Origin: Isoetes taiwanensis
Taxonomy: Eukaryota > Streptophyta > Lycopodiopsida > Isoetales > Isoetaceae
NCBI GenBank assembly: GCA_021234155.1
Contig: JAJEKV010000053.1
Coordinates: forward strand, 6,525,424 to 6,589,423
DNA length: 64,000 nt
Direction: 5' to 3'
This document shows positions 12,028-51,154 of this stretch, in pieces (the stretch's first letter is position 1; every line of letters begins with the position of its first letter). Position numbers and translations under genes: made by a program. The notes below the pieces were generated by a model. It did not search any database. It had not been told where the DNA came from and saw only the letters and a list, made by a program, of their open reading frames with translations.

Positions 12028-12689
12028 TTTCTTTTAATATGATTTTTATTGTTAGATAAAGGATAGTGCACGAGGGCATGAATACATAATTGTTATCCCA
12101 CAACATATAATATTTTCTGGACATATAATATTTTTCTTGATATCTGTTAATCGTATCATTCCATACTTATTACTTTTATTGTGTGGGGACAAGATGAAAG
12201 AGACCTCATTTAATTTTATTTAGTTTGTGTTGTATTTCTCACCTTTACCACATGGTTCGAAAAACTTTATAAGCCTTACCAGACAATTTGCCGCCTATAC
12301 CTAATATGTACCGGATTTAATAGATAACAAGATTCAAATATACCGGATTTTAAACTAAACTCTACTCTTTTGTACTGGAATTTTGCCAATCTAAAATGGA
12401 AATTTTGAATTCCAACCGGAATTTTAAGGGCCTAACCCTTACTTTTTCGAACCTTGCTTTACCATTGGATGAAGACAACTAGTCTTGTCCTACTAATAAA
12501 TGATTATCTAAACTTCCACATTTAGCATATATGCCTTGGTTAGTAGTTCCACTATGTCCAAGAATATATTTTGGTAAGGGACTCGCACAGAACACAGAAA
12601 ACCGCCGAAATAGATAGGCTTGGCATTCATCACAGCAGCAATATACAAGGGTTGGAAAAAACATGGAGTGGAGAGCTGACCATAGGAAC

Positions 12690-13895
12690 AACGTCGAGAT
12701 CCCCAAGATCTTCAACTGCAAAGTGTGGAGCATCCTGACGATATTGGTCTGCATGATGGCGGTACCGTTCCTGAGCCTGGACAAGGTGTCCCTGAAGATC
12801 ATCCTGGAGCTGACAAAGCTTGTCAAGTCGATCTTCGGCACTGGGGTTAATCGAATTAGAACCGGGAGCAATGAAGGACCAGCGCGGATGAGTAGCATAA
12901 TTCACAAAGAATGGCGTCTGCCTAGTGGAAGCATGAACTGAATTATTATAGGCAAACTCCGCCAACGGGAGCCAGGAAGTCCAGTCATCCTGCTGATAGC
13001 TGAGAAAACACCGCAAATACTGTTCCAGAGTCTGGTTGGTGCGTTCCACTTGGCCATTAGTCTCGGGGTGGTGCCCGGAAGACAGGTTGCGGTCCACTCC
13101 TAAGAGCTGCAGAAGCCGTTTCCAGAAACCGGCAACAAACTGGGGGCCCCGATCACTGATAGCAGAGTCTGGCAATCCATGAAGACGGACTACTTCCCGG
13201 AGGAACAGATCAGCCGTGCCTTCACTGGTGATGGTGGTACTGCATGGAATAAAGTGTGCCATCTTGGAGAACCGATCCACGACTACAAGGATGGCATCAT
13301 GCCCTTGAGAGGGTGGAAGTTCCACAATGAAATCTACTGAGATACTCTTCCATGGACCATCTGGGACTGGCAAGGGCTGGAGCAGACCGTGCAGGAGATG
13401 CTTAGGAGTCTTCGCCCGGCAACAAGTATCACAGGAGCGTACAAACGCCTCCACTGTGCGGCGGAGACCGGGCCACCAGTAATCTCGACCAATGAGCTCG
13501 AGAGTCTTGGCCACCCCAAAATGACCAGCTAGCGGAGTGTCATGACAGGACTGTAGAACTTGGAGCCTGGGATTCCCATCTGGGACATACAGGAGGCCAT
13601 TGCGGAACACGAGCCCATCCCGCACTTCAAACTGCTCATATTTCTCAGGGGAGGCGGCAGAAAACACTTCCTGAGCTAACGGGTCGGAGGGCAGAGCCCC
13701 CCGAACTGACTCCAACAGGACGGCATCATGAGGTCTGTCATATAAAGTGAGGGCCATGAACTGCAACCGGTCAGGTCCCAAAACCACCTGTGACTGTTGG
13801 TCAAATGCGGGATCTCCTGGCTTTGACTCGAGGGAGGAACGCCGAGACAAAGCGTCTGGCTTCCCCTGGAGTGCCCCGGGCCGATACTTGATCAC
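12690..13895 (-). pseudogene. Outer element integrase, C-terminally truncated
   Basis: Starts with the RNase H-integrase linker (KPDALSRR), then the zinc-binding HHCC module (HDTPLAGH ... CDTCCRAK). The core has the catalytic triad in order: Asp in SVDFIVELP, Asp in ISDRGPQF and Glu in HHPETNGQVERTNQ. It joins the element's cDNA to host DNA. After HFAVED (about 12710) the reading departs from the family, so the GPY/F region and any chromodomain are missing. The codon usage is GC-rich, unlike the flanking AT-rich DNA. Confidence 0.85.
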
Positions 13896-15035
13896 AAAGT
13901 CTACACGTGACAGACAACACCTGCGTGTCCCACCGTGCCTGACGCCAGTTCAGAACTCGAGCAGACTGAAAATACTCCAAATTCTTGTGATCGGTGTACA
14001 CAGTGACCTTGTGAGGGGACCCTTCCAAGAACCTCCTCCATTCGTCAAAACAATCAACTATCGCCATCAGCTCCTTGTCATAAATGGGATAATTGATCTC
14101 TGCAGCCTGGAATTTCCTGGAATGGAAAGCAATGGGGTGCAACTCATGGTCATCCCCCTCCTGTGACAGAATACCCCCAAGGGCAAAGTCGGATGCATCC
14201 GCTTCTACCACATACGGCCGTGAAGGATCCGCATGGGCAAGGACTGGTGCCGAAGTGAAAGCATGTTTCAGAATGACGAAGGCCGTCTCTGCTTCCACAC
14301 TCCATTCGAAAGGCACATCCTTCGACGTAAGGCGCTCAAAGGAAGCACAATCTCCGAGTAATCCTTAATGAAGCGGCGATAAAAATTAGCAAACCCCAGG
14401 AAGCACTGGATATCTTTGACTGAAGAAAGTGTCTCCCACTCAAGCACGGTTCTGACCTTTTCTGGATCCATCGAAACACCATGAGGAGAGATGCAATGCC
14501 CTAAGAACTCAACGTGATTTTGCTCGAACTGGCACTAGCCCATGTTCACGCAACTTCTGAAGAACCTTCCGGACATGTTCTTCATGCTCTTCCAAGGTCT
14601 TTGAATAAATCAAGATGTCATCCAGGTAGATGATCACAAACAAATCCAGGAACTCACAGAAAACGTCTGCGGGGGATTGGTTAGGCCGAAAGGCATGACG
14701 ACGTACTCAAAATGTCCATACCGGGTCCGGAATGCTGTCTTCCATTCATCACCTTCTCTGATCCGGATAAGGTTGTAGGCACCACGGAGATCAATCTTGG
14801 TGAAATACCGTGCACCTTGCAGCCGCTCAAGCAATTCTGGAATCAGAGGCAGAGGGTACTGGTTGCGAACAGTGATCTTGTTCAACTCGCGGTAATCTAC
14901 AACCAACCGCAAAGATCCATTCTTCTTAGAGAGAAGAAGATGGGAGCGCCAACAGGTGACTGAGAATGCCGGATAAAACCTGTTGCAAGATTCTCCTCAA
15001 TGTAAGTGCGCAGAGTCTCCAACTCTGTCGGAGAC
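13801..15035 (-). pseudogene. Outer element reverse transcriptase and RNase H
   Basis: In order from the right: [13 protein letters not shown], then [32 protein letters not shown] and the catalytic YLDD of [14 protein letters not shown] (near 14615). Next come the thumb region (FLGFANFYRRFI) and an RNase H with ADASD, YDKELMA and YTDHKNL. One-base frame changes occur near 14660, 14490, 14325 and 13900. The N-terminal end is cut at 15035 by the inner element, so this half has no start of its own. Confidence 0.85.
15031..15035. repeat. Target site duplication GAGAC, left copy
   Basis: GAGAC directly precedes the left LTR of the inner element and recurs at 28139-28143 directly after the right LTR: the 5-bp duplication expected for Ty3/gypsy integration. 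Confidence 0.93.
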
Positions 15036-16682
15036 TGTGACGCTCCCTGCTAAACATACGGCGCCCAGCCGTACGCTCGGCAGGAAATCCCCCATCCGGC
15101 TCACAACCGCCGCGGGCCCGCCGTCTACCCGCTCTCGAGGTGACCCTTAGTGCGGGGGAGGGAATCTGAAAGGTGTCTTGGCGCGCCCCTTCCCCTATGG
15201 GCTCCTATAACAGCGGAAGCGATAACACGTCAGAACTAGCATCAAACATATACGAATACTACCCCGAGGGGTAGTGCATCACACATATACCAATGCAAAG
15301 ATGATAATCATGAACCATAAAACATGAGAGCTCCTACCCTGGTTCAGACTCATAAGGAGGATGACTGACCGGCTAGGCCTCAAGATAGAGCAGACCGAGT
15401 CATGGCAATGGCGAGGGCTGGCATAGAACAATGGCTAGGGTTGACCACTCCATCCGCCCCTCCTGTGCATACTTTGCAGATGGGCTAGATCAGGCTCTGA
15501 CAGGACTCTAGCCTTCCGGAAACGCAATCCCATGGTATCACCCATCGGGACTACTCCAGGTTGCATCTCCCTGGTCCGATGAGGCAGGAAGGGTTGCATC
15601 TCCCCTTCCCAGGGTCTAGAGGTGCCGTGGGCGGCTAGAGAATCGTGGCGACACACACACGGTCGTGCCGGATGAACCCCCAAAACGAGAGCCAAGCCAT
15701 CACTTGCAGCTCTCGAGAGGCGTGGCAACACCATTGCCCGGGGAGGTGTCGGACCCATGCTCGCCCACTGCTAAGTGACCGACCATAAGCCTAGCCCACT
15801 ATGGGATCCCCCGAAGCCCCCACTCGGCAGGGATCCTCCCTCCACATTCCCTCTAGCCCCGTTATCCGGTCTTTGAGTCAGTATCATAGCCTCCATAGCC
15901 GGTGGGCTCCTATGCACAGGCCGCAACTAATAGGAACTAAGGGATCTACTCTAGGAACATACTACATATGGCCCTAGGTCTCTACCCCCCTTCCCAATAC
16001 AAGAGGAGCAAACATGATCAACCATCAACATATAATCATCACATCATGAGAATAATCATAAGAAGAACATCTTAACCTAATCATACAAATCTAACTAATA
16101 GTTAGGGTTCCTTGATTAGGGTTCAAGATGTTGAATATGGGCTCTAGGATGGCTCTACTCTAGATACAAGATACTAGCATATCTGGAATGCTAATTCCAG
16201 ATAAGCTATCACAACTGCTATCCTACATACCGCTCCCGAAGCTCTCCCCCGGATCCCGGGCCTCCATGGTCTTCGACTCACAAGCTGCTGTTCCTCCTCC
16301 AAGAACAGGTCTACCCTGCTGGGGCTGCTGCACCAGCCTATGCCACAACGAACGATGTTCGAAACGGGGTTTCGAACAAGTAGGTGAGTCTCTGGGTGCT
16401 AGGGCTGGAAAGAGGTCTAGGGTTAGGGTTTATGCCTATATAAGTTAGGTCCACCTAGGATGCCACGTGGCACCAATCGGGTGAGTCTTGTGTGGCGGTG
16501 CCCCAATAGGTTAAGGCCACATGGATAATGGCTTAACCTATGGTTGGCTAAGTTATGAGAATAACTTGGCCATGCCCCCTAGTGCCACCCTTATGGTATA
16601 CAAGGCTATGAATGATAGACTTGTATGGTGACGGATCCAGGAATATACGTATTTATAGCGTATATTCCCCTGGACCGTCACA
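15036..16682 (-). repeat. Inner element 3' LTR (left)
   Basis: 1647 bp, starting TGTGACGCTCC and ending GACCGTCACA on the plus strand. Nearly identical to 26497-28138. The differences are small indels and substitutions concentrated in GC-rich patches, for example near 15110-15185 and 16225-16260. Confidence 0.95.
16435..16444 (-). promoter_or_regulatory. TATA-like box in the left LTR
   Basis: CTTATATAGG on the minus strand, identical in position to the one in the other LTR. In this 3' LTR it could drive transcription outwards into the truncated outer element. Confidence 0.4.
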
Positions 16683-16695
16683 TTCTCCCCCCCTT
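16683..16695 (-). promoter_or_regulatory. Polypurine tract of the inner element
   Basis: Minus-strand AAGGGGGGGAGAA lies directly before the 3' LTR's TGTGACG and is the expected plus-strand primer site. A small stem-loop (arms AATGCTG and CAGCATT, plus-strand 16701-16718) lies just upstream in element sense; the same arrangement occurs at 31472-31508. Confidence 0.85.
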
Positions 16696-16718
16696 AGGAC
16701 AATGCTGTCCTCAGCATT

Positions 16719-17590
16719 GCGCTAAGGTGACGAACCTACCTTATACCTGCAACAAAACAACATGTCATAACCTTTAATTTTACTTTAGTAATCAAGTTTT
16801 ATTAGTTAAAGGTCAAAATTTAGGCTATATTTGTACTTATACAAAATTATATAGCCTTAACACGGTTATTTCCTACGATAATTCAAACATTATTATAAGA
16901 GTTATTAGGGTTCATAATCTAAATTATGGCTCCCCCTAGCTTCTCGTAACGCGCTCCTCGTTGAGGTCCTCCTTCTACTTGCCTGCAAAAAGGAGCACAT
17001 TACGTTAGTTTAGTTAATAATTTGTGGTTTTAGGGGACCACCCCCCTTACCTCCTTGAGCCGAACTACTGGCTCAAGGTTGTCCTACTACCTTGCCCAAG
17101 ATCATGGCCCTTTCGGATTTGAGCTTAGGGATCATTTAAGATGCTCCCATCATTGCCCATGATCGAGTGCTACCTTGTACACGATCCCCCGGATCGAGTA
17201 CACCCCAGTGCATCATGCCCCGAGGGTTTCAGCTAGGGAACGTCTCACGATCCCATCATCAGCAAGATGATCACTTAAGCTTCACCATGACCCTCCTACG
17301 GCCGGTGCGTGATTCCCGCATCGTGGCATAGAGATCATCCGATCGATGTCCCATCATCGCCCACCATGCCTCATTCCTCACTCACATGACCCTAATGGTC
17401 ATGCGCACCTCTTGGTGCGTGTGGCCTAGAGAATGCCCTAAAGGCGTATCCCATCATCGCCCCCACACGATCCAAGGTTCCGCACATGCACCCTCCTAAC
17501 TAGAATGCATCGCCCGGGCTCAAAGCTAAGCGCAACATACTAGCTAACCACCGGCAAGTCGGGGTCGACCAAGTTGGGAGACGACTTCGC
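16719..17590. other. Inner element region between pol and PPT
   Basis: About 0.9 kb without a supported ORF on either strand. It is probably the element's 3' untranslated region. Confidence 0.5.
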
Positions 17591-18202
17591 CCATCAAACT
17601 CCTTCATAAACTCGGGTATTGCTTCTCCAAATCCCGCTTCAATACCCACGCCGCATCTTCCACGGGTAAGTGCTTCCACTTAACCGGTATTGAGGAACTG
17701 AGACCTCCTAGTCTTCTTGAATGACTTATCAAGAAGTAACTCGGGGCACTATTTCTACTTGCTCCTCCGTCATTTCCAACAAGGTTGGAGTATCCAAAAC
17801 CTCCTCAGGGTTAGGATTGTGCCTTTTTAATAAACTTACGTGGAAGACCTTGTGGACCTTAAGATGGGCTGGAAGATCCAACTTATAGGCTTGAGAGCCC
17901 ACTCTCTCTAAAATCTTGAACGGCCCAGCCCACCTAGGGGCAAGCTTCTTGCAGCTCCCAATCCGCAGCTTGGCTTGCTTCACCTTGATCTTCAACCAAA
18001 CGGTATCTCCCACCTTAAACTCCCTTACGGTCCTGTGCTTGTCGGCTACACTCTTCTGCCGACTTCTTGCTGCCAATAAATAACCCCTTACTTCCTCTAC
18101 TAGTTGCTGCATATCCCCTAACATCTGTTGGGACACTTCTACCTTGGACACAGGATTGTGCCAGGTATCCGGGGTTAAGCACTGGTAGCCGTAGTTCACC
18201 AT
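17591..18202 (-). pseudogene. Inner element integrase C-terminus and chromodomain-like segment
   Basis: The first part has the C-terminal integrase pattern FKVGDTVWLKIK, then RWAGPFKILERVG and HKVFHVSLLKRH (GPY/F-type region). After a frame change near 17730 there is VKWKHLPVEDAAW, the W-rich core of a chromodomain-like module, closed by a stop near 17607. Chromodomains of plant gypsy elements bind methylated histone H3 tails and steer integration. This is striking here because the same element encodes an H3-like protein. The first aromatic position of a canonical chromodomain cage is not clear because of the frame change. Confidence 0.7.
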
Positions 18203-18209
18203 GAAAGGC

Positions 18210-18905
18210 TTACATCCGGGATGACTCCCCTTGCAAGTAATCGCTTTGTAGGCTTAATTCCACCAAGTGAATGTACTCATCCCACTTGGACTGCTTGTTC
18301 CACACATAGCTTCGAAGCATGTCCTCAATGATCCGATTGGTCCTTTCCGTCTGGCCATCTGTTTGGGGATGATATGCCGTGCTCATGGAGAGCTTCGTCT
18401 GAATGGTGCTAAAGAGATCCTGCCAAAAGGCACTCATAAACTTAGAATCTCTATCAGATATTATCTCCCGAGGCATGCCATGGAGTCTAAAAATCTCCCT
18501 TACAAATAACTTTGCAGTATCTAATGCGGTGTCAGTAGTTTTGCAAGGCACAAAATGCGCCATCTTTGATAACTTATCTACGACAACCATCAATGCATCC
18601 TTGCCTCGAAGAGTTCTAGGGAGACCTGTGATGAAATCCATGCTTATGACCTCCCACTTTGCATTTGGCACCCCCTAATGGCTCTAAAGCACCGGAATCC
18701 GTAGCTTGCTCGCGCTTGGTCTCGGGCTGACACAACTGGCAATCCCGAATATATGCAGCTATCTGCTTCTTCATACCTGGCCAGAAGTAGCTACTTCGAA
18801 TCTTGAAATAGGTCTTCATAAAGCCAGCATGCCCTGCTATTGGGCTGTTATGTGTGTCATGAAGAATTAACTTCCTTACCCCCGATGATAGGGCACACAC
18901 AACTT
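18210..18905 (-). pseudogene. Inner element integrase core and zinc module
   Basis: HDTHNSPIAGHAGFMKTY followed by CQLC provides the HHCC zinc site. The core carries Asp in SMDFITGLP, Asp in IISDRDSKF and Glu in HPQTDGQTERTNR. One frame change near 18670 separates the zinc module from the core and another near 18215 separates it from the C-terminal part. The family role is strand transfer of the element cDNA. Confidence 0.85.
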
Positions 18906-19631
18906 ATGCTTGTGATACAACAGTTGCCTTCCTTCTTATAATGTTTGAAGGCTTCCCGCTCCTTATATCCGTTTCGCTTCCTTGGAAAGACTTTCCCATA
19001 CCTCCTTGAAGTCTACATCTGTTGGCAAGGACTCTTCAATCTTCTTGCCAAACTCACTCGAAAGAGTGGAAATCGTGATTACAATGCGCCCTTGTCCGAA
19101 ATGGTCTCCCCGGAGAGGGCATCCGCTACAACATTAAGCTTACCGTGCTTATATATAATATCAAAATCATACTCCTCAAGGAATTCCATCCACCTCCTTT
19201 GCCTTAAGTTGAGGAGTGGTCGGGTGAAAAATATACCAAGGCTCGGTGATCAAGATCTAACTCAAACTTCCTTCCCAAAGAAATAATGCCTCCATATCCT
19301 CAATGCCCCGACAATGGCTAGCAGCTCCCGATCATGGGTTGGGTAGCGTTGTTCGGCGCCGTTCATCTTCTTCGAAGTCGAGGGCGACTACCCTTCCTTC
19401 TTGCATCAAGATCGCCTCTGTTGCTATCTTGCTTGCATCCGTTGCTATCAACTTATCCTTACCGGATCCGGAGAACAAGCACCGGTGTGCTGTTGTTAAG
19501 GCCTCTTTAAGCTTCTCAAAAGAAGCTTGACTTTTTCTAACCAATGGCTAGCCCAATCCTTAATCTTCTTGGCCTTAGTGAGGTCCGGACGGAGGGGACG
19601 CCCACCTAGCAAAGTCCTTCACTTTAACTTT
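18906..19631 (-). pseudogene. Inner element RNase H region
   Basis: A KLKEALTTAH segment then LIATDASK, the first catalytic Asp of Ty3-type RNase H. The downstream Glu and Asp parts are scattered over other frames between about 19330 and 18905. Low colinearity suggests decay or many sequence errors. Confidence 0.6.
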
Positions 19632-20340
19632 CTATAGTATCCCGCCAACCCGAGAAAGCTTCTTACTTCGCCACATTCCTTGAGCTGGCCAATCAACTAT
19701 TGCCTCAATCTTAGATGGATCTCGTGGAGATTCCCCTGATGTTACCACATGCCCCAAATACTCCACTCTACTGCTGGTAAAGTGGCACTTAGAGAGCTTC
19801 CCATACAACCTATGACGCCTCAACTTCTCCAACACTTTCCCGAGATGTCGACAATGCTCTTCCGGGGACTTGTCTGAGATTAGGATGTCGTCGAAGAAGA
19901 CAATAACAAACTCATCCAAGAAGTCTCTCAAGATATCGTTCATGAGGCGATAAACGTTAAGGGAGCGTTGGACAATCCAAAGGGCATTATCAGTAAACTC
20001 AAAATGACCATACCCGCTGCTCAAAGCGGCCTTATGGATGTCCTCTTCTTTTTTATTCTTATCTGATGGTATCCTGATCTTAAATCAATCTTAGAGAATA
20101 CCTTTGCTCCTTGTAGCTGATCCATTAGGTCATCCGCCCTTGGCAATGCATACTTATTCTTTATCGTCTGCTTATTGAGCTGGCGATAGTCTATGCACAT
20201 TCTTAAGCTCCCATCTTTCTTCTTGACAAAGAGTATAGGTGCTCCGAAAGGAGACACACTTGCTCTTATAAATCCAAGCTCGAGCAATTCTGCCACTGTT
20301 TCTTGAGCTCGGCCAATGCGGGATGCTCATTCTATATGGC
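19632..20340 (-). pseudogene. Inner element reverse transcriptase
   Basis: [20 protein letters not shown], then [28 protein letters not shown] and, after a frame change near 20022, YGHFEFT and VFFDDILI. The catalytic tetrad is FFDD (near 19885), where many family members have YxDD, typically YIDD or FFDD in Ty3 types. The palm-to-thumb region continues to VEYLGHVVTSGE. Single-base frame changes occur near 20022, 19975 and 19665. Confidence 0.85.
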
Positions 20341-20344
20341 GCTT

Positions 20345-22392
20345 TTATCGGTCGGCCAGATCCGGAGCCAATGTGATCTCACATTCCACACCCCTATAAG
20401 GTGGCAGCTGCCGGATTTCATCCGGAAATACATCCCTGAATTCTGAAATAAGCCTTGCTATCTGCCTGGGCAGCTGATTTCCCTTTGTGTCACTTCCATC
20501 CTGCTTGCCTGGCTCAACTGATTCCATCCTCAAGATGTAATCCACCTTATTCCTTTCTATACTCTTCCTTAGCTGCTTCAAAGAAATACACTGCATAGGG
20601 GATTCTAGCTTCTTACCTTTCACTATCAACTTGCTGCCGTCTGGTGCCGTCATGGTGACTTCGTTCCGGTCACAATCAATTACTGCTTTAGCTGGCTTCA
20701 AGAATTCCATCCCCACAATAAGATCATACCTTCCAATATCCATGACTTCTGCTCCCATCGGCCATTTAGCCCCACTAAGATCTATGTCAAAGATGATTCT
20801 CCTCCCCTTAGTGTGCCGGATGGCGCCGTTTGCCATAGCTACTGGCCTTGGCTTAGACTTCAATACCTTGTTCTTCATTAGAGCAGCCAGTCTAGGAGAT
20901 GCAAAATTATGAGAGCTACCTGTATCTATGAGGACTACATATGGCTTACTATCTATGATTCCCTCAGCCGCAATGACCGTTGACTGATTCTCTATATCAT
21001 CTGACTCAATGTTTGCACATATGTGGCACTCACCATCTATGAAGTCCTGGGCCTCCTGCTGTTCATCGTCCTCGTCCGCTTCTGTTGGGGAGTCCCAATC
21101 CATAAGCTCTGCCAAGGCTGACTGCATGACGAATGGACAATCATGTGTCCTGTGCCCTGGCTGGAAGCACCTGAAGCATAACTTCTTCTCAATGCATTCC
21201 TGTCTCTTTTCCTTCGGCAGACTGTCTAGGAGACGCTTAAGAGCACTTCCCCCTGATGCATTCTGTGGCTTACGGTCCCCAAAAGCTTTGCTCTTATCCT
21301 TACCTTGCTGCTGGCCCCCTGATGGTGTAGCTGCTGATTGCTTACCCTGATATTGTCCCTGATACTGCCCTGAACTCTTACCCCTGAAGGTTGACTGCTT
21401 CTCTGCTGGAGTTGCTGGTGCCTCCTCCAAACTTATAGCTTTATCTTCGGCCTCTGCAACTGACCTTGGGTTGATTGCTCTAACAAGCCTCTTGATATTG
21501 CTGTTCAACCCCTCAATATAGGTGTCCACTGCTTGCCTTTCTGATACTCCCGGGACATGAAGTCTAAGTCTCATGAATTCTTCGGTATACTTAGCCACTG
21601 ATAAGGTACCCTGATTCAACCTGTAAAACTGCTGAATCTGTCTACTAGTATGAGACCTCGGCACATAGTGCTTGCGGAAAGCCTTGCTGAAGGTCTTAAA
21701 CCTGCAATTATTCCTCTTCAGCTTGTTGGACTTAGCATATCCCTTCCACCAGATCCTTGCCGGTCCAATAAGGTTAGCTGTCGCGACTTTCCCTATGTCC
21801 TTGTCTTTCATACCGTATGAGTTGCCAAATTCTTCCATTTCATCCAGCCATGCTTCAGCCTCCATGCCTGATCTGTCTTTCCCTGAAAACTGGCCCAGCT
21901 TCCTTGTCTTCCACACATTGCTCATAGCACTATCCACCTTTTTCTGATAGTCATCCGTCTTTCTTGCCCTTTTTCTTGCCTTAGGTGTGTCGACTCACCA
22001 CCGTTTGAGCTAGAGCCGCGCCACCGGAAGAACTATCCGATGAGCCGGAACTAGATGATGATGGACTCCCCGGTTCTCCTTCTTCGTCTCTTGTCCCTGA
22101 CGTTGCCGTGGTTGCCCTCCCCTTCCTGCTGAGGGACTTCGTCACCACCCGGAACACAAGGTGGAGGCGGAGGACCATCTTCTTGTGCATTCATGAGAGG
22201 TGTCGCCCAGTTGATGAGATGTTGCATCTGATTCCTCATCTGTACCAACCTTGCATTAACCGGGCCCGTGACATATCCCCGCTCAAAGTCTTCCCCGCTC
22301 TCGCCGAACAAGTTCCTTGGTACCCAATTATGGTGGTCGGTGCTGGTCCCGAGACCCCGTGACTTGAGTTCCTTGCTGCAAGTATTGGTCAT
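20345..22392 (-). CDS. Inner element Gag and aspartic protease
   Basis: An N-terminal part (22392-22051) starts at an ATG and contains a proline run followed by an arginine-rich segment. Two frame changes (about 22050-21940) lead into the 530-codon reading that ends at 20345. This has the retrotransposon Gag core (TANLIGPARIWWKGYAKS, KAFRKHYVP, YTEEFMRLR), a CCHC zinc knuckle CFRCFQPGHRTHDC near codon 250, and an aspartic protease with LIDTGSSHNF. It packages element RNA and processes the polyprotein. Gag and protease are in one frame and run straight towards RT, so no programmed shift is needed at that junction. Confidence 0.85.
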
Positions 22393-22598
22393 TAATACGT
22401 GTTATTAAGTTAGGCAATGATCATTATTGCTTACAATTAAATTGTTGTTAGCCACAAAAGAAATCATATGAAAACTTCATTTATAGGTCAACATCATAGT
22501 AGTACATTAATTAGTATATAGGAATACATTCACTAGACTTCATGATAATACTTAAGAAGAATTACAATATACTTAAATCTTATGAGACAATTCTTCCA

Positions 22599-23264
22599 TC
22601 AATGATGTCGCTTGAAGAAGTTCTTGATTTTCTTGTATGCTGTGCCCTTTCCCATGTTCTCGCAAAGATTCTCGCCCGACCCTCCCTCTAATGCTCTTGC
22701 CACCTGTGGTGCTGGTAGTTCTGGTGCAGTTGCCGCTACCACTGACAAGTGCGCATCTCTGAGGTGGCCCCTTGCGAAGTCGAGGGCGTGAAGTGCTACT
22801 GCTCTCTTAAAGAGTATAACATGGTCCATTCCGACATCTATCTTGGCGTGATGCCCAAACCCTGTAAGCGCTATAAGGAGCGCCACTGATTCTTCACCTC
22901 TTGGGCTGAACTCCTTGTGAAAGACTATCATCTGACCTTGGCTAAGGGCCGGAAGATAGTACCTGAGTGATTTACCCCTATGTGGCCCCGTGGCTCCAGT
23001 GCCTTTCCTGCCCGCTGCCTGCCCGACGATGTCTATTGCTGTAAGATCTTCGTGGTCCCTCCACATTGTTGCTGCGTTTTCTAGATTAATGCTACTAGAT
23101 GCCTCGCGCATGCTCCTGGAGCGGACTGGTCGGCTCGAACTTGGGCCCCTTCCCGGCTTGTACAACCTGCTTTGGATCTCCTGAAATTCCTCCTCTGGAA
23201 TGTCGGGTTGTTTGTTCTTGAAACATCCGCCTTTATCTGGCTGGTGCGCTTGGATATCCGACAT
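22599..23264 (-). CDS. Unrecognised accessory ORF B of the inner element
   Basis: 221 codons starting MSDIQAHQPDKGG. Its start overlaps the end of ORF A by 32 bases in a different frame, so it may be a separate ORF, a frameshift product, or one ORF with ORF A broken by an indel. It has an Arg/Ser-rich early segment (SSSRPVRSRSMREASSS), a mid part GQMIVFHKEFSPRGEESVAL and a basic C-terminus (KKIKNFFKRHH). I see no zinc knuckle, protease, envelope-type signal or transmembrane segment and do not recognise a family. Confidence 0.6.
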   Translation of the reverse strand: MSDIQAHQPDKGGCFKNKQPDIPEEEFQEIQSRLYKPGRGPSSSRPVRSRSMREASSSINLENAATMWRDHEDLTAIDIVGQAAGRKGTGATGPHRGKSLRYYLPALSQGQMIVFHKEFSPRGEESVALLIALTGFGHHAKIDVGMDHVILFKRAVALHALDFARGHLRDAHLSVVAATAPELPAPQVARALEGGSGENLCENMGKGTAYKKIKNFFKRHH

Positions 23265-24117
23265 GGTTTCCTAGCAGGGAGGAATGTCGCTCGGCTACCT
23301 CCCTCGGGATCTCCTGATAGGAGTAGTCGATGAAGTCGCTACCCTGTTCCTGTGCCATTAGTCCTAGGAGCTCGTCTATCCGGAGGTTTTCCTCTTGGCA
23401 ATAGGGAAGGTTAAGGATGTCGGTGGCGAATATATACTCCTCTCCGTCAATGATCACTGGGGTGAGGGCCGTGATACCTATTGGCGGTTCGAAATCTCGC
23501 CTTAGCCCCTCGTGTTGCTGAGCTATACGCCTCTCCATCCTTCTTGCCTCGCTTATCTCCCAGCTTGGGTTCTCTTCCTCTTCTTCCTCATAGTCCTGCT
23601 CGATCTGCAGTCTAGGTGTTTCTGATGTAGACCCATGGTATTCGTATTGCGCTGTTTCGATCTCGAGGATACCTATCTGCTGCCTTCGAGTGTCGAGAGG
23701 AGCTAAATCCAAGGGTTGAATGGACGGCTCGCCTGGTTGGTTGACTGCTCTATACTGCATGAATAAGGCTAAAGCTGCCTGGTTTGAGACGTACCTATGC
23801 CTATGATGCTTACAGGTCATGTAGTCTGGCATGTTTCTGGTTCTATCCCACAACCTACTCTTGCCCCTAGATCCCCCACCTATGGCTTGGGCAAGGGTGT
23901 CTAAGGAGACCCATTTCCCCCCCCTAGGTGGCAAGCTGACCTCCCCGGGTAAAATGAGCTGATCATATTGACAAATGATGTCAGTGTAGTAAGGAGTTCT
24001 GGTTAGGGTGGCGTGAAGATCAAAGAGATGATCGAAGACATGAAAGGCTTGGTCAGCAGGGAGTTCACGGATGTGATTGGAATCATTGTACCATCTAACA
24101 AAGTTTGATGGTGCCAT
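23233..24117 (-). CDS. Unrecognised accessory ORF A of the inner element
   Basis: About 294 codons from the ATG at 24117 (MAPSNFVRWYNDSNHIREL). The upstream in-frame extension to 24264 lacks ATG support near it. Features: a Trp/Tyr/His-rich N-terminal half with MPDYMTCKHHRHRYVSNQ, which has a single Cys and several His but no clear zinc pattern; a glutamate run of about nine acidic residues in the middle; and an acidic C-terminal part (LRIDELLGLMAQEQGSDFID). No signal peptide or membrane segment. It lies between the H3-like ORF and gag in element orientation. I cannot assign a function. Confidence 0.6.
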   Translation of the reverse strand: MAPSNFVRWYNDSNHIRELPADQAFHVFDHLFDLHATLTRTPYYTDIICQYDQLILPGEVSLPPRGGKWVSLDTLAQAIGGGSRGKSRLWDRTRNMPDYMTCKHHRHRYVSNQAALALFMQYRAVNQPGEPSIQPLDLAPLDTRRQQIGILEIETAQYEYHGSTSETPRLQIEQDYEEEEEENPSWEISEARRMERRIAQQHEGLRRDFEPPIGITALTPVIIDGEEYIFATDILNLPYCQEENLRIDELLGLMAQEQGSDFIDYSYQEIPREVAERHSSLLGNHVGYPSAPAR

Positions 24118-24399
24118 TGAGCAGAGATGGCTGTGAAAAATGGCTGATGGAAACAAGTAGGGAGCTAGAAAATCGCCAAAGGGGCTGGGAGCACTTTTGA
24201 TGGGAAGAAAATGACAAATGGGGCCCCTTTTATAGACTAGGGGTGCCCGGGTTCGTGTGCACAAAGGCTCTTGATGGGAAAGACTCCAAATCTATGGCCT
24301 TGGGTGTCCAAATGAGCTACCATGAAGTGCAATTCTAAACAAAACAAGGCAAGAAACACTACATGGCAGTTTGTTGGGTCAAATTTGGTCAAGCTAGGC

Positions 24400-24687
24400 G
24401 AAGTTCGGGAAAATCGGTGGCGTCGCTACGGATGGGGTCAAGCGTCATGGGCAGCAGCGATTCGGCGCGACGGGACCCGATTTCGGGTTATTTCAACTTT
24501 TAGGAAAAATTTTAGGGTGTTAGAAGATGCTAATATGACTTTCTAGCATGATTCTGACTTAATTAGCAACTTTTATTACTTAATTTGGACATGACTTAGC
24601 TAAAATTTGGCGAAATCGGGTGGCGTCGCGCGGATGGGGTCTGCGTCGCGAGCGCAGGCGCATTCGGCGCGACGGGACCCGATTTCG
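24400..24687. repeat. Two copies of an about 80-bp direct repeat
   Basis: Copies at about 24400-24487 and 24607-24687 share GGCGTCG, GATGGGGTC and the 20-base word CGGCGCGACGGGACCCGATT, separated by AT-rich DNA. They lie in the untranslated gap between the H3-like ORF and ORF A and may be a promoter, an RNA structure or a reinitiation element. Confidence 0.75.
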
Positions 24688-24836
24688 GTTCCTGACCTAA
24701 AAAATTTTTTTAATTTCCTTTTCCTATTTAATTACTTAAACATGTTTTTACCCCTACTTTATATTTATTGCACAGTTTTACACAAAACTTTATATTTATA
24801 GGAAAATAATTACATTAGTTTGACAAAATTGCATCC

Positions 24837-25926
24837 TCAAGGGCGTTCCTTGCGGATGCGACGCGCCAAGTGGATGTCCTTGGGCATGAGGGTCACCCTC
24901 TTCGCGTGGATCGCGCAGAGGTTCCCTTCCTCAAACAACTGGGTGAGCTCGGCCTCAGCGGCCACTTGCAACACCCGAGTTGTAAGGGACGTCACCCTAT
25001 AGTCGGTGACGTACTCCGCCATTACCTCCCGCATAAGCCGCTCAAACGGCGCCTTCCTAATCAGGAGATTAGTGCACTGTTGAAAGTGCTTAATCTCCCG
25101 AAAAACTCGGGCGTGCGGGGAATTAGGTCCATGGTGGACCTTCTTGGGCTTCTCGGGCTGTGGCGGCGGCGGCTTGGGCTGGTTCTTTGGCGGCCGGCCC
25201 CCCTCCACTGTCCGCTGGACGTTCTGCCGGCAATACCAATCATTATACCTCGTCCACCGACGAAGGTATTCTTGGTATGCCTTGAGGCGGCGCTGGTAAA
25301 GGCGGTCCTCCTTCAAGGCGAAGCCTCGCTCGCCCGCCTTCTGCTTCTTTACCACCTTAGGTGGCTCGGGCCACACTGGATAAGGTGGTCTTGGTTCTGC
25401 CCCTTCCTCCTGTTCTTCTTCCTCCTCCTCCACTTCTTCCACCTGCTCCTCCTCCCGGCGGGGAGGCTCCTCGATGACGACGGTTCGGCGGGGACCGTCG
25501 TTCTTTCTTTCGTCCTCTCCTCACGCCCGCAACTCCTCCTCACGCTCCCTCTTCCTCCTGGCTGCCCTCTCCTCTGGCCACTCAGTGACCTTCTCCTTGC
25601 CCTTTTTCTTGGGCACCGAAGGCCCCGCTTCGTCCACCTGCTGCTGGACTTGCTCTTCCTCCTCTGTTCCCGCCGGTTATTGTCACGTGGCCCGAAGTGG
25701 CGTGGATTTCATCGGTTCTTTGTGTCCCCGCCGACGAGGGGCTGCTCTCGGCATCGTGGTAGGACTCGTCGCTGCTGCTGCTGCTGGTAGGGGGGAGCTC
25801 CTCTTCCCCCTTCTTGGGCCGTAGGTGCTCTGGTATCTTCTTCACATGGCGTCCCGCTGCTAGGTTCGCCATCGAGAGTGTGGGGCGCTGTCCTGGCTTC
25901 CTGTAGGTCTGTTTGGTCCTGGCCAT
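24837..25926 (-). CDS. Histone H3-like protein encoded by the LTR retrotransposon
   Basis: The ATG at 25926 starts [15 protein letters not shown], which aligns with the H3 tail: R2, T3, K4, Q5, T6, R8 and K9 kept, A7 to Tyr, S10 to Pro. [14 protein letters not shown] then matches the VKKPHRxRPG boundary of canonical H3. There follows a long insert (Ser-rich, then Lys/Glu-rich, Pro-rich and Tyr/Trp-containing, roughly 230 residues). From about 25120 to 24837 comes a complete histone fold: [10 protein letters not shown] (alphaN), [14 protein letters not shown] (alpha1), [16 protein letters not shown] (alpha2), then [20 protein letters not shown] and ARRIRKERP. By eye about 54 of 87 residues of the fold match canonical H3, with no loop-1 expansion of the CENP-A kind. 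One frame change (about 25670-25690) and an in-frame TGA near 25516 break the reading within the insert. Confidence 0.9.
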
Positions 25927-26482
25927 ACTTAACGGTCTAGAAAACGGGTGGGGATAGGCTGGTCAAGAGAGAGGTGGAGGTGTAGGGTTGGAGAGAGAAA
26001 ATGAGGTGTCAGGGATATTTAAAGAGGAGGGTCCCTTAGAATATTCTCCTATCATCATTACCCCTATTTATTAGCCCCCCCTTATTAATTACACCCTATT
26101 TAATAGTTATTTAATTATTAAAATATATACTAAAATTCGTATTATACCTGTAATTTTTCAATTTTCCTAATGGTTTGAGGTGTTAATTATGTATTTGCGC
26201 CATTTTTCACCCGGGTCTCCGATTGGCATGATTCTTCGACCCATTTTAGGTGAAATTTGATGCAGATGCATAATTTTCACTTCAAATTTACTAGAAGATG
26301 AGTTTGACTCACTCAAACCTTCGTCTAACACTTAACCTAAATCCTGACCCACTACCTAGGAGAAAAAATTTTTCCCCCATTTCCGCGGTTCAGTGGTGGA
26401 AATGTTCATTTCACACCTCTATAGGCCTGTTAGACTACTTCATGGTTATGGTCAGTGCTAGTTCTTGGTCAACCAAGAACAT
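25927..26482. other. Inner element leader between PBS and H3-like ORF
   Basis: Non-coding 0.55 kb, AT-rich in its middle; the H3-like ORF is therefore the first ORF of the element RNA. Confidence 0.6.
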
Positions 26483-26495
26483 GGCTCTGATACCA
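26483..26495 (-). promoter_or_regulatory. tRNA-iMet primer binding site
   Basis: Minus-strand TGGTATCAGAGCC, one base inside the end of the right (5') LTR. This is the standard plant primer binding site complementary to initiator methionine tRNA and fixes the orientation of the element. Confidence 0.95.
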
Positions 26496-26496
26496 T

Positions 26497-28138
26497 TGTG
26501 ACGCTCCCTGCTAAACATACGGCGCCCAGCCGTACGCTCGGCAGGAAATCCCCCATCCGGCTCACAACCGCACGGGCCCTTCGTCTACCCCGCACTCTGA
26601 GGTGACCCTTAGTGCGGGGAGGGAATACGAAGGTGTCTTGCGCGCCCTTCCCCTATGGGCTCCTATAACAGCGGAAGCGATAACACGTCAGAACTAGCAT
26701 CAAACATATACAAATACTACCCCGAGGGGTAGTGCATCACACATATACCAATGCAAAGATGATAATCATGAACCATAAAACATGAGAGCTCCTACCCTGG
26801 TTCAGACTCATAAGGAGGATGACTGACCGGCTAGGCCTCAAGATAGAGCAGACCGAGTCATGGCAATGGCGAGGGCTGGCATAGAACAATGGCTAGGGTT
26901 GACCACTCCATCCGCCCCTCCTGTGCATACTTTGCAGATGGGCTAGATCAGGCTCGACGGGACTCTAGCCTTCGGAAACGCAATCCCATGGTATCACCCA
27001 TCGGGACTACCTGTGTTGCATCTCCCCTGGTCCGGATGAGGCAGGAAGGGTTGCATCTCCCCTTCCTGTGGTCTAGAGGTGCCGTGGCGGCTAGAGAATC
27101 GTGGCGACACACACCATCTGCACTGACCGAACCCCCAAAACGAGAGCCAAGCCATCACTTGCAGCTCTCGAGAGGTGTGGCAACACCATTGCCCCGGGAG
27201 GTGTCGGACCCATGCTCGGCCCACCTAAGTGACCGACCATAAGCCTAGCCCACTATGGGATCCCCCGAAGCCCCCACTCGGCAGGGATCCTCCCTCCACA
27301 TTCCCTCTAGCCCCGTTATCTGGTGCTGAGTCGTATCATAGCCTCCATAGCCCGGTGGGCTCCTATGCACAGGCCGCAACTAATAGGAACTAAGGGATCT
27401 ACTCTAGGAACATACTACATATGGCCCTAGGTCTCTACCCCCCTTCCCAATACAAGAGGAGCAAACATGATCAACCATCAACATATAATCATCACATCAT
27501 GAGAATAATCATAAGAAGAACATCTTAACCTAATCATACAAATCTAACTAATAGTTAGGGTTCCTTGATTAGGGTTCAAGATGTTGAATATGGGCTCTAG
27601 GATGGCTCTACTCTAGATACAAGATACTAGCATATCTGGAATGCTAATTCCAGATAAGCTATCACAACTGCTATCCTACATACCTGCTCCTGAAGCTCTC
27701 CCTCCAGATCCGGGCGCCTCCATGGTCTTCGACTCACAAGCTGCTGTTCCTCCTCCAAGAACAGGTCTACCCTGCTGGGGCTGCTGCACCAGCCTATGCC
27801 ACAACGAACGATGTTCGAAACGGGGTTTCGAACAAGTAGGTGAGTCTCTGGGTGCTAGGGCTGGAAAGAGGTCTAGGGTTAGGGTTTATGCCTATATAAG
27901 TTAGGTCCACCTAGGATGCCACGTGGCACCAATCGGGTGAGTCTTGTGTGGCGGTGCCCCAATAGGTTAAGGCCACATGGATAATGGCTTAACCTATGGT
28001 TGGCTAAGTTATGAGAATAACTTGGCCATGCCCCCTAGTGCCACCCTTATGGTATACAAGGCTATGAATGATAGACTTGTATGGTGACGGATCCAGGAAT
28101 ATACGTATTTATAGCGTATATTCCCCTGGACCGTCACA
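26497..28138 (-). repeat. Inner element 5' LTR (right)
   Basis: 1642 bp, near-identical partner of 15036-16682, bounded by TGTGACG and CGTCACA. It should drive transcription leftwards through the H3-like ORF. Confidence 0.95.
27891..27900 (-). promoter_or_regulatory. TATA-like box in the 5' LTR
   Basis: CTTATATAGG on the minus strand, about 240 bp inside the LTR from its outer end; the likely start region for the element RNA. Confidence 0.45.
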
Positions 28139-28143
28139 GAGAC
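28139..28143. repeat. Target site duplication GAGAC, right copy
   Basis: Matches 15031-15035 exactly, directly outside the right LTR. Confidence 0.93.
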
Positions 28144-29285
28144 AAACCATAGATGGGACCATACGGTGGAGTCTCCCCTGGCTGAAGATCAATGGGGCAA
28201 TCATATGGACGGTGTTCTGGCAGCTTACTGGCTTTGACCTTGTCGAAGACGTCCGAGAAATCTTTGTACTTGTCGGGAAGAACCGGAGCAGCTGTGGCAG
28301 GAGTCGAACTGGTTGCCGGATGAACTTGGATTGCAAATACTGAACTGGGGTCTTCTTTTCCGGACTGAACAAACTTTTGCAGCGAGATTGTCGAAATACG
28401 GAGCCGAGGACGTGAAGACGACTTGGAAAGATCGCCATCGCGATCCTGGCGAGCAGGAACAGGAACAGGAACAGGAACGGGAGCCGGAACAGATGCAGGA
28501 ACAGACTTCGGAGCATGAGCAGGAACACGAGCAGGAATTTCCTTTGGAGCTGGAACAGGGACTGGAACAGGATCAGGACATGAAGCAGGAACAAGAGTCG
28601 GGACAGAGACAGGATCAGGAACAGGGATCGAGACGGGAACAGGATCAGAATCAGCAACTGGGACATGGCAAGAAACAGGAACAGGATTCGAGACAGCAGC
28701 AGAGACAGGGTCAGGAGACCAAGAGACTCTACGGGACGGAGATGGCAGAGCAGAGGCAGGGTTTGTCGAAGAATCAGAACTGGAGCAAGAATTATCAAAA
28801 CGGAATGATCTGGAGCGCCAGTTAATCTGCGGATTGTGTAGCTCAAGCCAAGGAAGGCCCAAAACTACAGGTGCATGTGGGCTAGCGATGAGGTTGAAGC
28901 AGACACTACAAGCTGCTCCATCAAACAGGAGTCGAACCGGCGCGGTACATTCAGTGACCGCGCCCGAGGAGACCTGCTGTCCATCGGCCATACCAACAGC
29001 ACTGGGTTGCGCAACCCTGCTTCTAGGGATGGCGTGCTTGAAAGCAAACGCACTGTCCATAAAGCAAGCGTTGGCACCACTATCAAGGTGCGCAGATGCT
29101 TCCAACTTCCTGACCCCTGACTCCAACACCACAGGAATGAAGAACTCCTTACTGACCTTGTCCGAGGGGATAAACCCTTCACTGCAACTGGGTGGAGCCT
29201 GAGGATTGACGGTCAGTCGGCGAGAGACTCCTACTCCGACCGACCGCTGAAGTTTTCCGAATGACTCGGGAGCTTGACTGGGCAA
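28139..29285 (-). CDS. Outer element protease and start of pol
   Basis: Protease motif HLDSGANACFMD with its downstream VVLGLPWLELHNP flap-and-fold segment is followed by an unusual Pro-Val-rich linker of roughly 100 residues with repeated PVPVPVP units (about 28440-28700). After it comes YDCPIDLQPGETPPYGPIYG, the usual N-terminal edge of RT. The reading then ends at the inner element. It overlaps gag by about 55 bases in the -1 frame. The plus-strand translation of the linker gives a long Glu/Gln repeat that I treat as a shadow. Confidence 0.85.
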
Positions 29286-30136
29286 CTACGAACCACATGG
29301 CCAGCCCCACCACAATAGAGGCAGAGGTTGGCCTCTCTTCTACGTTGCCTCTCAGCAGCTGACAAGGGACCCCGAACTGCTCGATCAATTTGCATCGGCA
29401 CCGGCCCTTCTGGCCTAGACGGCGGTGCCGAAACCGCTGTGACCACAGGGGTGTGAGAAGCCGGGGGCACATATTGACTCCGCTTTTCTTGCCTATGCTC
29501 GAACAAGCGGTTGTCGCACCGAACAGCAAACTTGATGGCCTCTGCTAAATTCTGCGGCTCATCCATACTCAACAGCATGTCCTTGACATCTTCCCGCAAA
29601 CCTCTCCGGAAACAATCCCGAAGAGCCACGTCGTCCCAGGTGGTATCAATGGCAATCTGACGGAACTCTGACGCATAAGCCGAAGCTGGTCGTGATCCCT
29701 GTCTAAGATTACTGAGCCGGTTCACTGCTGTTCGCTGCCGGTCAGTGTCACCAAAACATGCTTCGAGCTCCGCAGTGAAGCTAGCAAAATCCTGCAATTC
29801 TGGTGCTTGCTTCTCTAGCAAAGGGGCGAACCAACTGAGAGCCGATCCCGAAAGGAGGGAACCGACTAATCCAACCTGTTCACGGTCTGTGGGGTACCTA
29901 TGAGGATGGAGCTGGATAACAAGCCGGATTTGATTCAAGAAACCCCGAAGCTTGGACCGGGTGCCATCAAACTTCTCCGGCAAACAAATCTTTGGCTCAG
30001 ACACCTTCCTTCCAGAGCTAGAAGCTGACTCACTGGAAGTGAGCCGTTCCCTGAGTTCCTGATTATCCTGTTGCAATTGCTGGCAAATCTGCGCAAGCTG
30101 TTGCAGTTGCTGAGCATACGACGAAAGTTCCCCCAT
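29231..30136 (-). CDS. Outer element Gag
   Basis: Start taken at the ATG at 30136 (MGELSSYAQQLQQLAQ). An N-terminal Gln/Leu heptad region looks coiled-coil. Then comes the Gag core with FDGTRSKLRGFLNQIRL, SGSALSWFAPLLEK and SFTAELEACFGD, ending with zinc knuckle CLYCGGAGHVVRSC near the C-terminus. The core resembles Tf1/sushi-type Gag proteins. It stops in the overlap with pol; GGAAAAC (minus strand, 29258-29252) sits at the place where the frames exchange and is a candidate, not canonical, slip site. Confidence 0.85.
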   Translation of the reverse strand: MGELSSYAQQLQQLAQICQQLQQDNQELRERLTSSESASSSGRKVSEPKICLPEKFDGTRSKLRGFLNQIRLVIQLHPHRYPTDREQVGLVGSLLSGSALSWFAPLLEKQAPELQDFASFTAELEACFGDTDRQRTAVNRLSNLRQGSRPASAYASEFRQIAIDTTWDDVALRDCFRRGLREDVKDMLLSMDEPQNLAEAIKFAVRCDNRLFEHRQEKRSQYVPPASHTPVVTAVSAPPSRPEGPVPMQIDRAVRGPLSAAERQRRREANLCLYCGGAGHVVRSCPVKLPSHSENFSGRSE

Positions 30137-30917
30137 GAGGATTGATAATACCAAAAGCTACTCAGAGGGGTCGCCCAAATAATGCCAAATATGCTCCAAA
30201 AAAAATCACACCACAAGTGTACCCAAATACAACTCCCAAACCCCCCTGCTGGGGGAACAAAAACCCAAAAGAAAAATACCTGTACAAGATGCTACTCTGC
30301 TATCGAACAGAGCTAAAGAACTGACACACAGCAACATTTGGGCACCCCTAAAATTTCCACCATAGCTCGATCAACCCAAGTAATCACTTCATTAGTGAAC
30401 AGTGGATGTTCTTGTCTTGTGTGGCAGCTACAACCTGCAGATGTGTTGTCTTTTGTGATGACTATATCTGGTCATCCATTAAAAATTAGAATATTCCTGT
30501 TGAGTTTCTGATGTACTCGAACCTGCGCACACTATTACCTATACCTATTCCTCTCACACTTACCTCGAACCTCACGCAAATCCCTTTACCACTACAACAT
30601 TACATACTTAGCCATTTTCCACCTGTTCCTTCAAGAGGTGCGCTGCTGCCCGAAAATGAGTCTTAACTTTTGATTCTGAACCCGAAATCGGGTAGGAGCG
30701 CACCCATGCAAATTAAGGTTTCTCTAGCCAAATTTTGGCAGCACCTAGGTCCACATGATAGGCTAATTCGACCCTTGGGAGTCGGGGGAAACTGTCAAAA
30801 TTCACAAAAAAATTTACCAAAACTGCTAAGAGGATTGCGCCCAAGCTGAACTTCCCAAGCTGAACCACGAGCGAGCCCCAAGACAGATCCGAGCTAATGC
30901 TGGATTCCGGTTCAAAC

Positions 30918-38530: not shown

Positions 38531-38596
38531 ATGTTCCCCATTTCAAGCAACCGCAAAAAGATCTAAATGATATACCTAAACACAATATAGGCAAAA

Positions 38597-38893
38597 TGAG
38601 ATGTAATTCTTGCAATGCTACAATCCACAAACCTTCCCAAAACCAAAACTAAAGAAGCGTACCTATTTGAGATACACAAAGTACTTCGAGTTTTTTATCC
38701 TTCCAATGTCAAAGTTTCCATAATCACTAAATAATGTTCTCTTATATTAGCGGGGTGCTTAGCAGAGAGAACATTATTTAGTGATTATGGAAACTTTGAC
38801 ATTGGAAGGATAAAAAACTCGAAGTAGGTACGCTTCTTTAGTTTTGGTTTTGGGAAGGTTTGTGGATTGTAGCATTGCAAGAATTACATCTCA
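38597..38893. repeat. Large inverted repeat (foldback) with 128-146 bp arms
   Basis: The left arm 38597-38742 is the reverse complement of the right arm 38766-38893, with a 23-bp spacer. The right arm lacks an 18-bp piece (TACTTTGTGTATCTCAAA) that the left arm and the second block copy (about 51077-51094) retain. The deletion is therefore specific to this arm and has TA microhomology. Confidence 0.9.
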
Positions 38894-50000: not shown

Positions 50001-50272
50001 ATGATTCCCTAAATTCGACAGGGAGTGGTATGTTGAAGAGCTGGTGCAAGAGTGGATATATCCAGTTGATTTTTACAACTCCCTCACATCATATGCGAGA
50101 TTATTCTTTTGCAGAACGAAGATCAACTAGGAGAGTACAAAGTGATGTTCAGCCTCTGGCTGGTCTTTGGTCTGGTAACCGAATCGCTGGTCTGATGAGA
50201 GACGGAAAACCATTGGAATTGTCTGATGCAATGGAAGAGCTAAAAAGAAATGTGAAAAGGAAGAAAAATTAG
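47020..50272 (+). pseudogene. Crinkler (CRN)-like protein: P-loop ATPase plus REase-like domain
   Basis: Exons 47020-47224, 47986-48021 and 48089-50272. The first exon (MAEAISDYLFSKFPGK...) gives a small helical header. The large exon contains QFYGNEQAL, a Walker A APSGSGKTRT, a Walker B-like VVLDEAQELL and a later FFVSGTGRS segment: a P-loop ATPase. The C-terminal third holds GPDMIF followed by PVFVQVKTG, a D...QxK pattern seen in PD-(D/E)xK nuclease folds of CRN effectors. CRN-type proteins are known as host-targeted effectors in oomycetes and as resident genes in some plants and algae. Breaks: a frame change near 48295, a TAG at 49242-49244 and a frame change near 49465. The function here is unknown. 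Confidence 0.65.
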
Positions 50273-51001: not shown

Positions 51002-51154
51002 AGCGGGTGCTTAGTGAGAGAACATTATTTAGTGATTATGGAAACTTTGACATTGGAAGGATAAAAAACTCGAAGTACTTTGTGTATCTCAAATAGGTAC
51101 GCTTCTTTAGTTTTGGTTTTGGGAAGGTTTGTGGATTGTAGCATTGCAAGAATT

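Follow-up and report, generated by a model that had tools for sequence, protein, structure and literature searches.

The window, by which we mean the whole 64-kb stretch of Isoetes taiwanensis DNA analyzed here, contains on its minus strand a 13.1-kb Ty3/gypsy LTR retrotransposon (15036-28138) that carries a histone H3-like gene (Table 1). This gene is the first open reading frame (ORF) of the element, and gag lies further downstream. An LTR pair, a 5-bp target site duplication (TSD), a primer binding site (PBS) and a polypurine tract (PPT), as expected of a Ty3/gypsy chromovirus, are all present, and the PBS is presumably of the tRNA-Met type. The limits and orientation assigned to the element in a preliminary description of this DNA are borne out, as the LTRs, TSD, PBS and PPT agree with one another and the gag, reverse transcriptase and integrase regions all point the same way. 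The coding order of gag, protease, reverse transcriptase, RNase H (a match below the cutoff) and integrase is that of Ty3/gypsy elements; a relative from elsewhere in the genome, L010, has the full gag-to-integrase order of a Ty3/gypsy chromovirus. The insertion site is the reverse transcriptase gene of another Ty3/gypsy element, also on the minus strand (12630-14996 and 28139-30157, gag at 30157-29231), which the H3-bearing element splits in two. Within the 64-kb window, an H3 match occurs only inside the H3-bearing element and none lies in the split one.

Table 1 Features of the H3-bearing element, in window coordinates.
Feature	Positions	Strand	Evidence
Target site duplication GAGAC, left copy	15031..15035		sequence read
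3' LTR (TGTGACG...CGTCACA)	15036..16682	-	LTR pair alignment
Polypurine tract AAGGGGGGGAGAA	16683..16695	-	immediately 5' of 3' LTR
Chromodomain C-terminal part, after integrase, broken frame	17607..17804	-	PF00385 partial, E 0.011, below cutoff
Integrase C-terminal SH3-like domain	17729..18253	-	PF24626 9.4e-24
Integrase zinc-binding and core domains, two frames	18210..18903	-	PF17921 3.1e-19, PF00665 4.6e-11
Reverse transcriptase and RNase H start, several frames	19335..20326	-	PF00078 in two frames; PF17919 6.1e-06, below cutoff
Gag and protease, single open frame	20345..21994	-	PF03732 5.5e-17, PF08284 2e-10
ORF B, extra gene between H3 and gag, two frames	22599..24117	-	no Pfam match
Histone H3-like protein, C part: linker and complete H3 fold	24837..25520	-	PF00125 2.4e-30
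Histone H3-like protein, N part, MARTKQT start	25582..25926	-	frame broken before C part
PBS-like primer binding site TGGTATCAGAGCC	26483..26495	-	one base from 5' LTR inner edge
5' LTR	26497..28138	-	LTR pair alignment
Target site duplication GAGAC, right copy	28139..28143		sequence read

The H3 tail start and full H3 fold that had been described on the coding strand of the element are found at 25926-24837 of the minus strand. The fold is unbroken, but the gene is not one open frame, as its N and C parts lie separate. The protein matches the Pfam Histone family (PF00125) with 105.7 bits against a cutoff of 26.4, and its 93-residue fold can be aligned gap-free with plant H3, with 55 identical positions. 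In this gapless alignment the αN helix, helices 1-3 and the loops have the lengths seen in H3, and a low-confidence structure model (pLDDT 49.8) places the predicted helices where they are expected. The solved relatives are of the H3 type among the best 60 of 176 matches, none of which carries the name CENP-A or CENH3. Loop 1 of CENH3 is longer than that of canonical H3; a CENH3 origin was rejected in view of the gapless alignment to canonical H3 and the absence of a CENP-A or CENH3 name among those 60 matches. The N-terminus is also of the H3 type, with K4 and K9 present. A tail query against 5.8 billion proteins, in which the 8000 candidates with the most words in common with the query were scored, gave no match at E 0.01, and scans of viral contigs found no relatives. 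The protein search also listed records of ~270-350 amino acids, and the seven inspected are tandem canonical H3 proteins.

Neutral simulations of the single window copy gave a mixed result and are insufficient by themselves to settle the matter of selection. The copy remained free of stops in 123 and 144 of 1000 runs, and its substitution scores were reached in 175 and 356 of 2000. The conservation of residues 108-131, a stretch picked post hoc, was reached in 1 and 0 of 2000 runs, and that of the best 24-residue stretch anywhere in 10 and 9 of 5000. The tail retains eight of nine residues, which alone is not significant (P 0.064).

A Pfam histone search of the whole assembly, 1,658,258,908 bases in 1110 contigs, returned at least 150 places; those listed are all above the cutoff, and five have a stop. 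Fifteen of the listed places score at least 164 bits and match positions 2-122; the eight of these that were fetched are canonical host H3 genes. Many of the remaining 135 listed places lie in longer open frames of up to 494 codons, and 20 were fetched. A search with the C part of the window protein also returned at least 150 places, one of them in the window, with identities of 75-100%; by a count made by eye, 128 of those listed are free of stops and 22 contain them, and the weakest listed match still scores 370 bits. The figures of 8704 and 13317 obtained at first look are numbers of unscreened candidates. The copies are spread over many contigs, and an artefact confined to a single place was rejected on this ground.

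The 20 pieces fetched around Pfam H3 matches, each ~9.9 kb long, are referred to as the long type; 14 have frames of at least 440 codons. All 20 contain the H3 fold ORF, by which they were selected. Window-LTR-related sequence lies upstream in 19 of the 20, gag-related ORFs follow downstream on the same strand in 19 (the other, L011, has a relative of ORF B only), and the exact PBS core is present in 12. The H3 region of L025 has on either side an LTR-like repeat with 97% identity. Among five further copies (C952, C996, C1039, C1042 and C1019), LTR-like pieces are found on either side of H3 in all five, those of C952 being partial. The PBS core stands at the LTR edge in four, the exact core being absent in C952, and exact TSDs were identified in C1039, C1042 and C1019, none being recognized in C996 or C952. 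Thus the search for additional copies between LTRs, a check put forward in the preliminary description, revealed many copies and LTR pieces flanking H3 in further ones.

A sample blind to H3 was assembled from 79 places located with the gag-protease region of the window. An H3 match is listed upstream of 20 of these, the window included, at 2.8-5.5 kb, 19 of them within 2.8-3.7 kb, by a distance measure that depends on strand. The other 59 places are not H3 negatives, because the H3 matches with which they were compared are the best 150 only. Eight of the 59, all within the 38 best gag matches, were fetched, and H3-like sequence is present at the expected position in all eight, as fragments only in L059; piece L064 stops short of the fold. 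Among the gag-linked copies examined (20 listed and eight fetched), none was shown to lack H3. Of the eight H3-blind pieces, six or more have broken or shifted frames, with split matches in L058, L059, L060 and L063 and stops in L062 and L065, and these breaks stem from assembly errors or decay.

The quality of the assembly bears on such breaks. The two LTRs of the window element differ in 82 alignment columns that form 16 clusters as printed, one of which is a flank base, and ten clusters alter the frame. An equal number of differences scattered at random is expected to form ~45 clusters, with a minimum of 34 in 1000 trials. The clustering looks like the consensus errors of noisy long reads, and frame breaks in this assembly are therefore weak evidence of decay. 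The insertion in the window is probably young, since no more than three of the LTR differences are single substitutions that stand alone. The published Isoetes taiwanensis assembly is described as 1658.30 Mb in 204 scaffolds and 909 contigs, built from Nanopore and Illumina reads (PMC8566536).

The element proteins follow two designs. Window-type proteins start with MARTKQT[A/Y]RK, and their folds are identical to host H3 at 52-62 of 93 positions (21 sequences). Long-type proteins begin with ~300 other residues, their starts including MPRFKLTVDLKK, METPKQVYKRKP and MANTKS, among others, and their folds are identical to host H3 at 76-82 of 93 positions (19 sequences; L027 is without the end). 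The N-terminal region of ~300 residues gave no Pfam match in L010, L018 and L028. As the long-type copies do not have the ARTKQT start, mimicry of the H3 tail is not general in the family. A midpoint-rooted tree of 42 distinct folds places the window type on one side of a fully supported branch (100/100), unites the long type in one weakly supported group (80/73), and groups host H3 with other eukaryotic H3 proteins (93/83). The comparison with host H3 that had been proposed thus sets the element H3 apart as a separate group. Synonymous sites are saturated between host and element H3, which indicates that the capture is old.

The H3-type start is a stable feature of the window lineage. MARTKQ can be read, in any frame, in 19 of the 20 fetched window-type pieces, L038 having MARRKQ instead, and in seven of the eight H3-blind pieces, one of which has a stop soon afterwards; the best scores in an opposite-strand control for chance are 3-5 of 10. 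In 16 of the 20 window-type pieces the frame is open from MARTKQ to the end, and all 16 start with MARTKQT[A/Y]RK. K4 is kept in all seven readable H3-blind starts; K9 is R in one and is removed by a stop in another. Across the 16 in-frame copies, residue 7 is either A or Y. Position 10, where H3 has a serine, is taken by P, F, T, A or Y and never by S, and other sequence replaces the segment in which H3 has K14-K36. Changes of A7 and S10 would be expected to weaken the reading of K9.

Selection was assessed from pairwise dN/dS values calculated by the Nei-Gojobori method. The median for the window-type fold is 0.079, and all 164 usable pairs fall below 0.5, 46 of the 210 pairs being saturated. 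The corresponding value for the long-type fold is 0.033 (88/88 usable pairs below 0.5; 83 of 171 saturated) and that for host H3 is 0.008 (17/17; of 28 pairs, 8 were saturated and 3 too close). The pooled ratio of the window type drops with depth, from 0.19 through 0.12 and 0.08 to 0.04, and that of the long type runs 0.03, 0.08 and 0.04 before saturation. In 16 window-type copies the first ten codons (Met and residues 1-9) have a dN/dS of 0.032 at a dS of 1.6; pooled over 16 copies, the ratio is 0.19 for codons 11-45, 0.11-0.14 for the middle part and 0.088 for the fold. All of these element ratios are somewhat lowered by the choice of copies, because the 20 window-type copies were picked free of stops, the 16 tail copies also had to be open from MARTKQ onwards, and the best-scoring histone matches were the source of the long-type copies. 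dN/dS across copies, named beforehand as a measure of function, is at 0.03-0.08 far below 1 and favors a selected gene. This family of chromoviruses is thus shown to maintain its H3 variant gene through strong purifying selection, and the H3-like gene is almost certainly a selected histone gene.

The residues that are kept agree with this assignment. All 19 long-type folds, and 20 or 21 of the 21 window-type folds, retain nine residues that we take to be H3-H3' contacts. Among the eleven arginines of the fold, nine (R49, R63, R69, R72, R83, R116, R128, R129 and R131) are conserved in both types, in 18-19 of the 19 long-type folds and in 20-21 of the 21 window-type ones. The poorly kept residues are R52 (10/21 window-type), R134 (6/19 long-type, 9/21 window-type) and K64 (6/19 long-type), and K56 and K79 are absent from all 21 window-type folds. 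The chaperone-recognition stretch, residues 86-90, reads SLTTR or PLMTR in contrast to SSAVL or STAVL in the eight fetched host H3 genes, and this patch is altered in 21 of 21 window-type folds. Its region is described as steering assembly (PMC9145170). As the stretch differs from that of the host, host chaperones may not accept the element H3. The residue pattern fits a histone that could form nucleosomes yet be deposited differently.

Plant transposon silencing works largely through histone H3 marks. Selection on the element H3 suggests interference with DNA packaging by the host, and the best explanation as a whole, to which we give an even chance, is a selected H3 variant that would enter nucleosomes and loosen silencing. 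The variant is the first gene of the element after the PBS and has been kept by purifying selection through many rounds of copying. Its protein would pair with host H4 by means of the preserved fold, make H3-H3' contacts through the preserved C-terminal surface, and enter nucleosomes on element or host DNA. Judged by the fold, action within nucleosomes is probable. Nucleosomes of the window lineage would have a long arm that displays the ARTKQT end, with K4 and in most cases K9. They would be poor substrates for K9- and K27-based silencing, with the K4 end still open to its readers, and for this reason might loosen the silencing of the element. This anti-silencing step is the reading we prefer, although its probability falls somewhat short of even. 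Tentatively, the family may make a nucleosome species of its own, in which element H3 with at least two N-terminal designs replaces host H3 at element DNA, and in which the window lineage presents the K4 end and escapes K9/K27-based silencing.

The same constraint could be turned to use off the nucleosome, by a soluble protein that binds H4, chaperones, or the readers and enzymes of the H3 tail and thereby lessens host silencing. Such a decoy would suit the first ten codons, the most constrained part of the gene (dN/dS 0.032), and the change of the chaperone patch in every window-type fold. However, it has no obvious need for most of the fold arginines and the putative H3-H3' contacts, which are kept. 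The long-type folds, in which 76-82 of the 93 host H3 residues are retained, also speak against a decoy, and we regard it as unlikely. The H3 fold binds DNA, and the gene is located inside the element ahead of gag, so the protein might instead aid replication by coating or compacting new cDNA together with host H4, or by importing pre-formed chromatin into the nucleus before integration. That role is quite improbable, as host H4 would be required in the particle or at the pore and selection on ARTKQT in the window lineage would be left unexplained. The view that a host H3 sequence was captured by chance and is carried without function draws on the well-known capture of genes by LTR elements in plants (PMC13317346) and on the broken frames of the window copy and most H3-blind pieces. 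It was rejected and is scarcely credible, given the low dN/dS, with many pairs near synonymous saturation, and the H3-like sequence in eight of eight gag-linked pieces taken regardless of H3.

The preliminary description also raised the idea of a targeting loop, in which the chromodomain of the element would recognize the element H3 tail and steer integration to chromatin that contains this tail. Methylated H3K9 is bound by three aromatic-cage residues. The chromodomain of L010 is full (PF00385 6.3e-08, above the cutoff), and that of the window is half a domain. By eye, the sole complete chromodomain appears to be without the first and last of the three cage aromatics, which weakens the idea and makes a direct loop between chromodomain and K9-methylated tail an unfavored one. 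The same cage residues are missing in type II chromodomains, for which the binding partner is described as unknown (PMC6317226), and the same two chromodomain groups are described in lycophytes (PMC3350952). The H3 gene and the chromodomain do share one element in L010, and the window element sits inside another Ty3 element; in opposition to the loop, the H3 of L010 itself does not have the ARTKQT start. We consider the loop very unlikely.

An element-coded H3 whose modifiable tail is under strong selection would counter silencing directly, at the nucleosome itself. The copies of element H3 are natural experiments on the H3 residues that silencing needs, and with them a core histone joins the list of genes maintained by retroelements. 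No retroelement with a core histone was found among the matches listed from open full-text papers.

The nearest precedents are fungal hAT DNA transposons with H3-like genes. In Pyrenophora tritici-repentis, as here, a mobile element bears an H3-like gene (H3L), whose N-tail contains insertions, whose fold agrees with neither H3 nor CenH3, and which is present in 26 near-identical copies with ESTs and an adjoining ORF of unknown function (PMC3538342). That element is a fungal DNA transposon with terminal inverted repeats (TIRs), for which the authors suggest drift, and the H3L passage of PMC3538342 contains no dN/dS test. In contrast, the Isoetes element is an LTR retrotransposon with several diverged H3 lineages and a dN/dS far below 1; it has LTRs and gag-pol in place of the hAT transposase and TIRs that define the hAT-borne H3L class. 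A core histone H3 is likewise amplified with a hAT transposon in Pseudocercospora fijiensis and its relatives, but all of the captured copies described are inactivated by RIP and most are truncated, so that they do not represent a maintained gene (PMC6710886).

A captured host regulatory gene is kept by a Ty3/gypsy lineage of Phalaenopsis as well, though it encodes an AlkB-type RNA demethylase, an enzyme that acts on RNA, and not a histone (PMC9289625). The same paper describes 15 frequent extra domains in 121 angiosperm genomes, and a histone is absent among the nine of these that its text names (PMC9289625). The bracovirus H4 is a histone of a mobile agent; it is incorporated into the nucleosomes of the host and changes expression by way of its N-terminal tail (PMC5423620). 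DNA viruses have single H3 genes, and in some viral H3 proteins the chaperone patch is likewise altered (PMC9145170). Unlike the Isoetes element, the carriers of these histones are not retrotransposons, and the main text of the viral histone review makes no mention of retrotransposons or retroelements (PMC9145170). Large Ty3/gypsy elements of the Ogre, Retand and Athila groups have an extra 5' or 3' ORF, as does the element described here; they are, however, non-chromoviruses with other domains, and no histone is described for them in the sections of PMC6317226 concerned. A 2026 review of plant gene capture (PMC13317346) and the genome papers on Isoetes taiwanensis (PMC8566536) and Isoetes sinensis (PMC10541799) do not use the word histone in their main texts.

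ORF B, the second extra gene of the window element, is split between two frames and comprises ~500 codons. A protein search with its N part gave no match at E 0.1, and the structure model of this part has a pLDDT of 33.6. Weak relatives (22-31 bits) are present in 13 of the 20 long-type pieces, some as one open frame of 482-507 codons. The gene is not always present, since in L010 only ~265 bases separate the H3 and gag-pol open frames.

Several features lie elsewhere in the window. At 54626-63903, about eight units of 1.12 kb are repeated in tandem, with 60-97% identity between copies in blocks aligned without gaps. A perfect 147-nt inverted repeat (38596-38742 and 51017-51163), with its arms 12.3 kb apart, possibly marks the ends of a mobile element. 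Two long ORFs lie on the plus strand at 48192-50272, of which the first weakly matches the P-loop family AAA_22 (E 0.00055, short of the cutoff), and an ORF on the minus strand at 3109-3627 encodes a phosphatase resembling NLI-interacting factor (PF03031, 4.8e-13).
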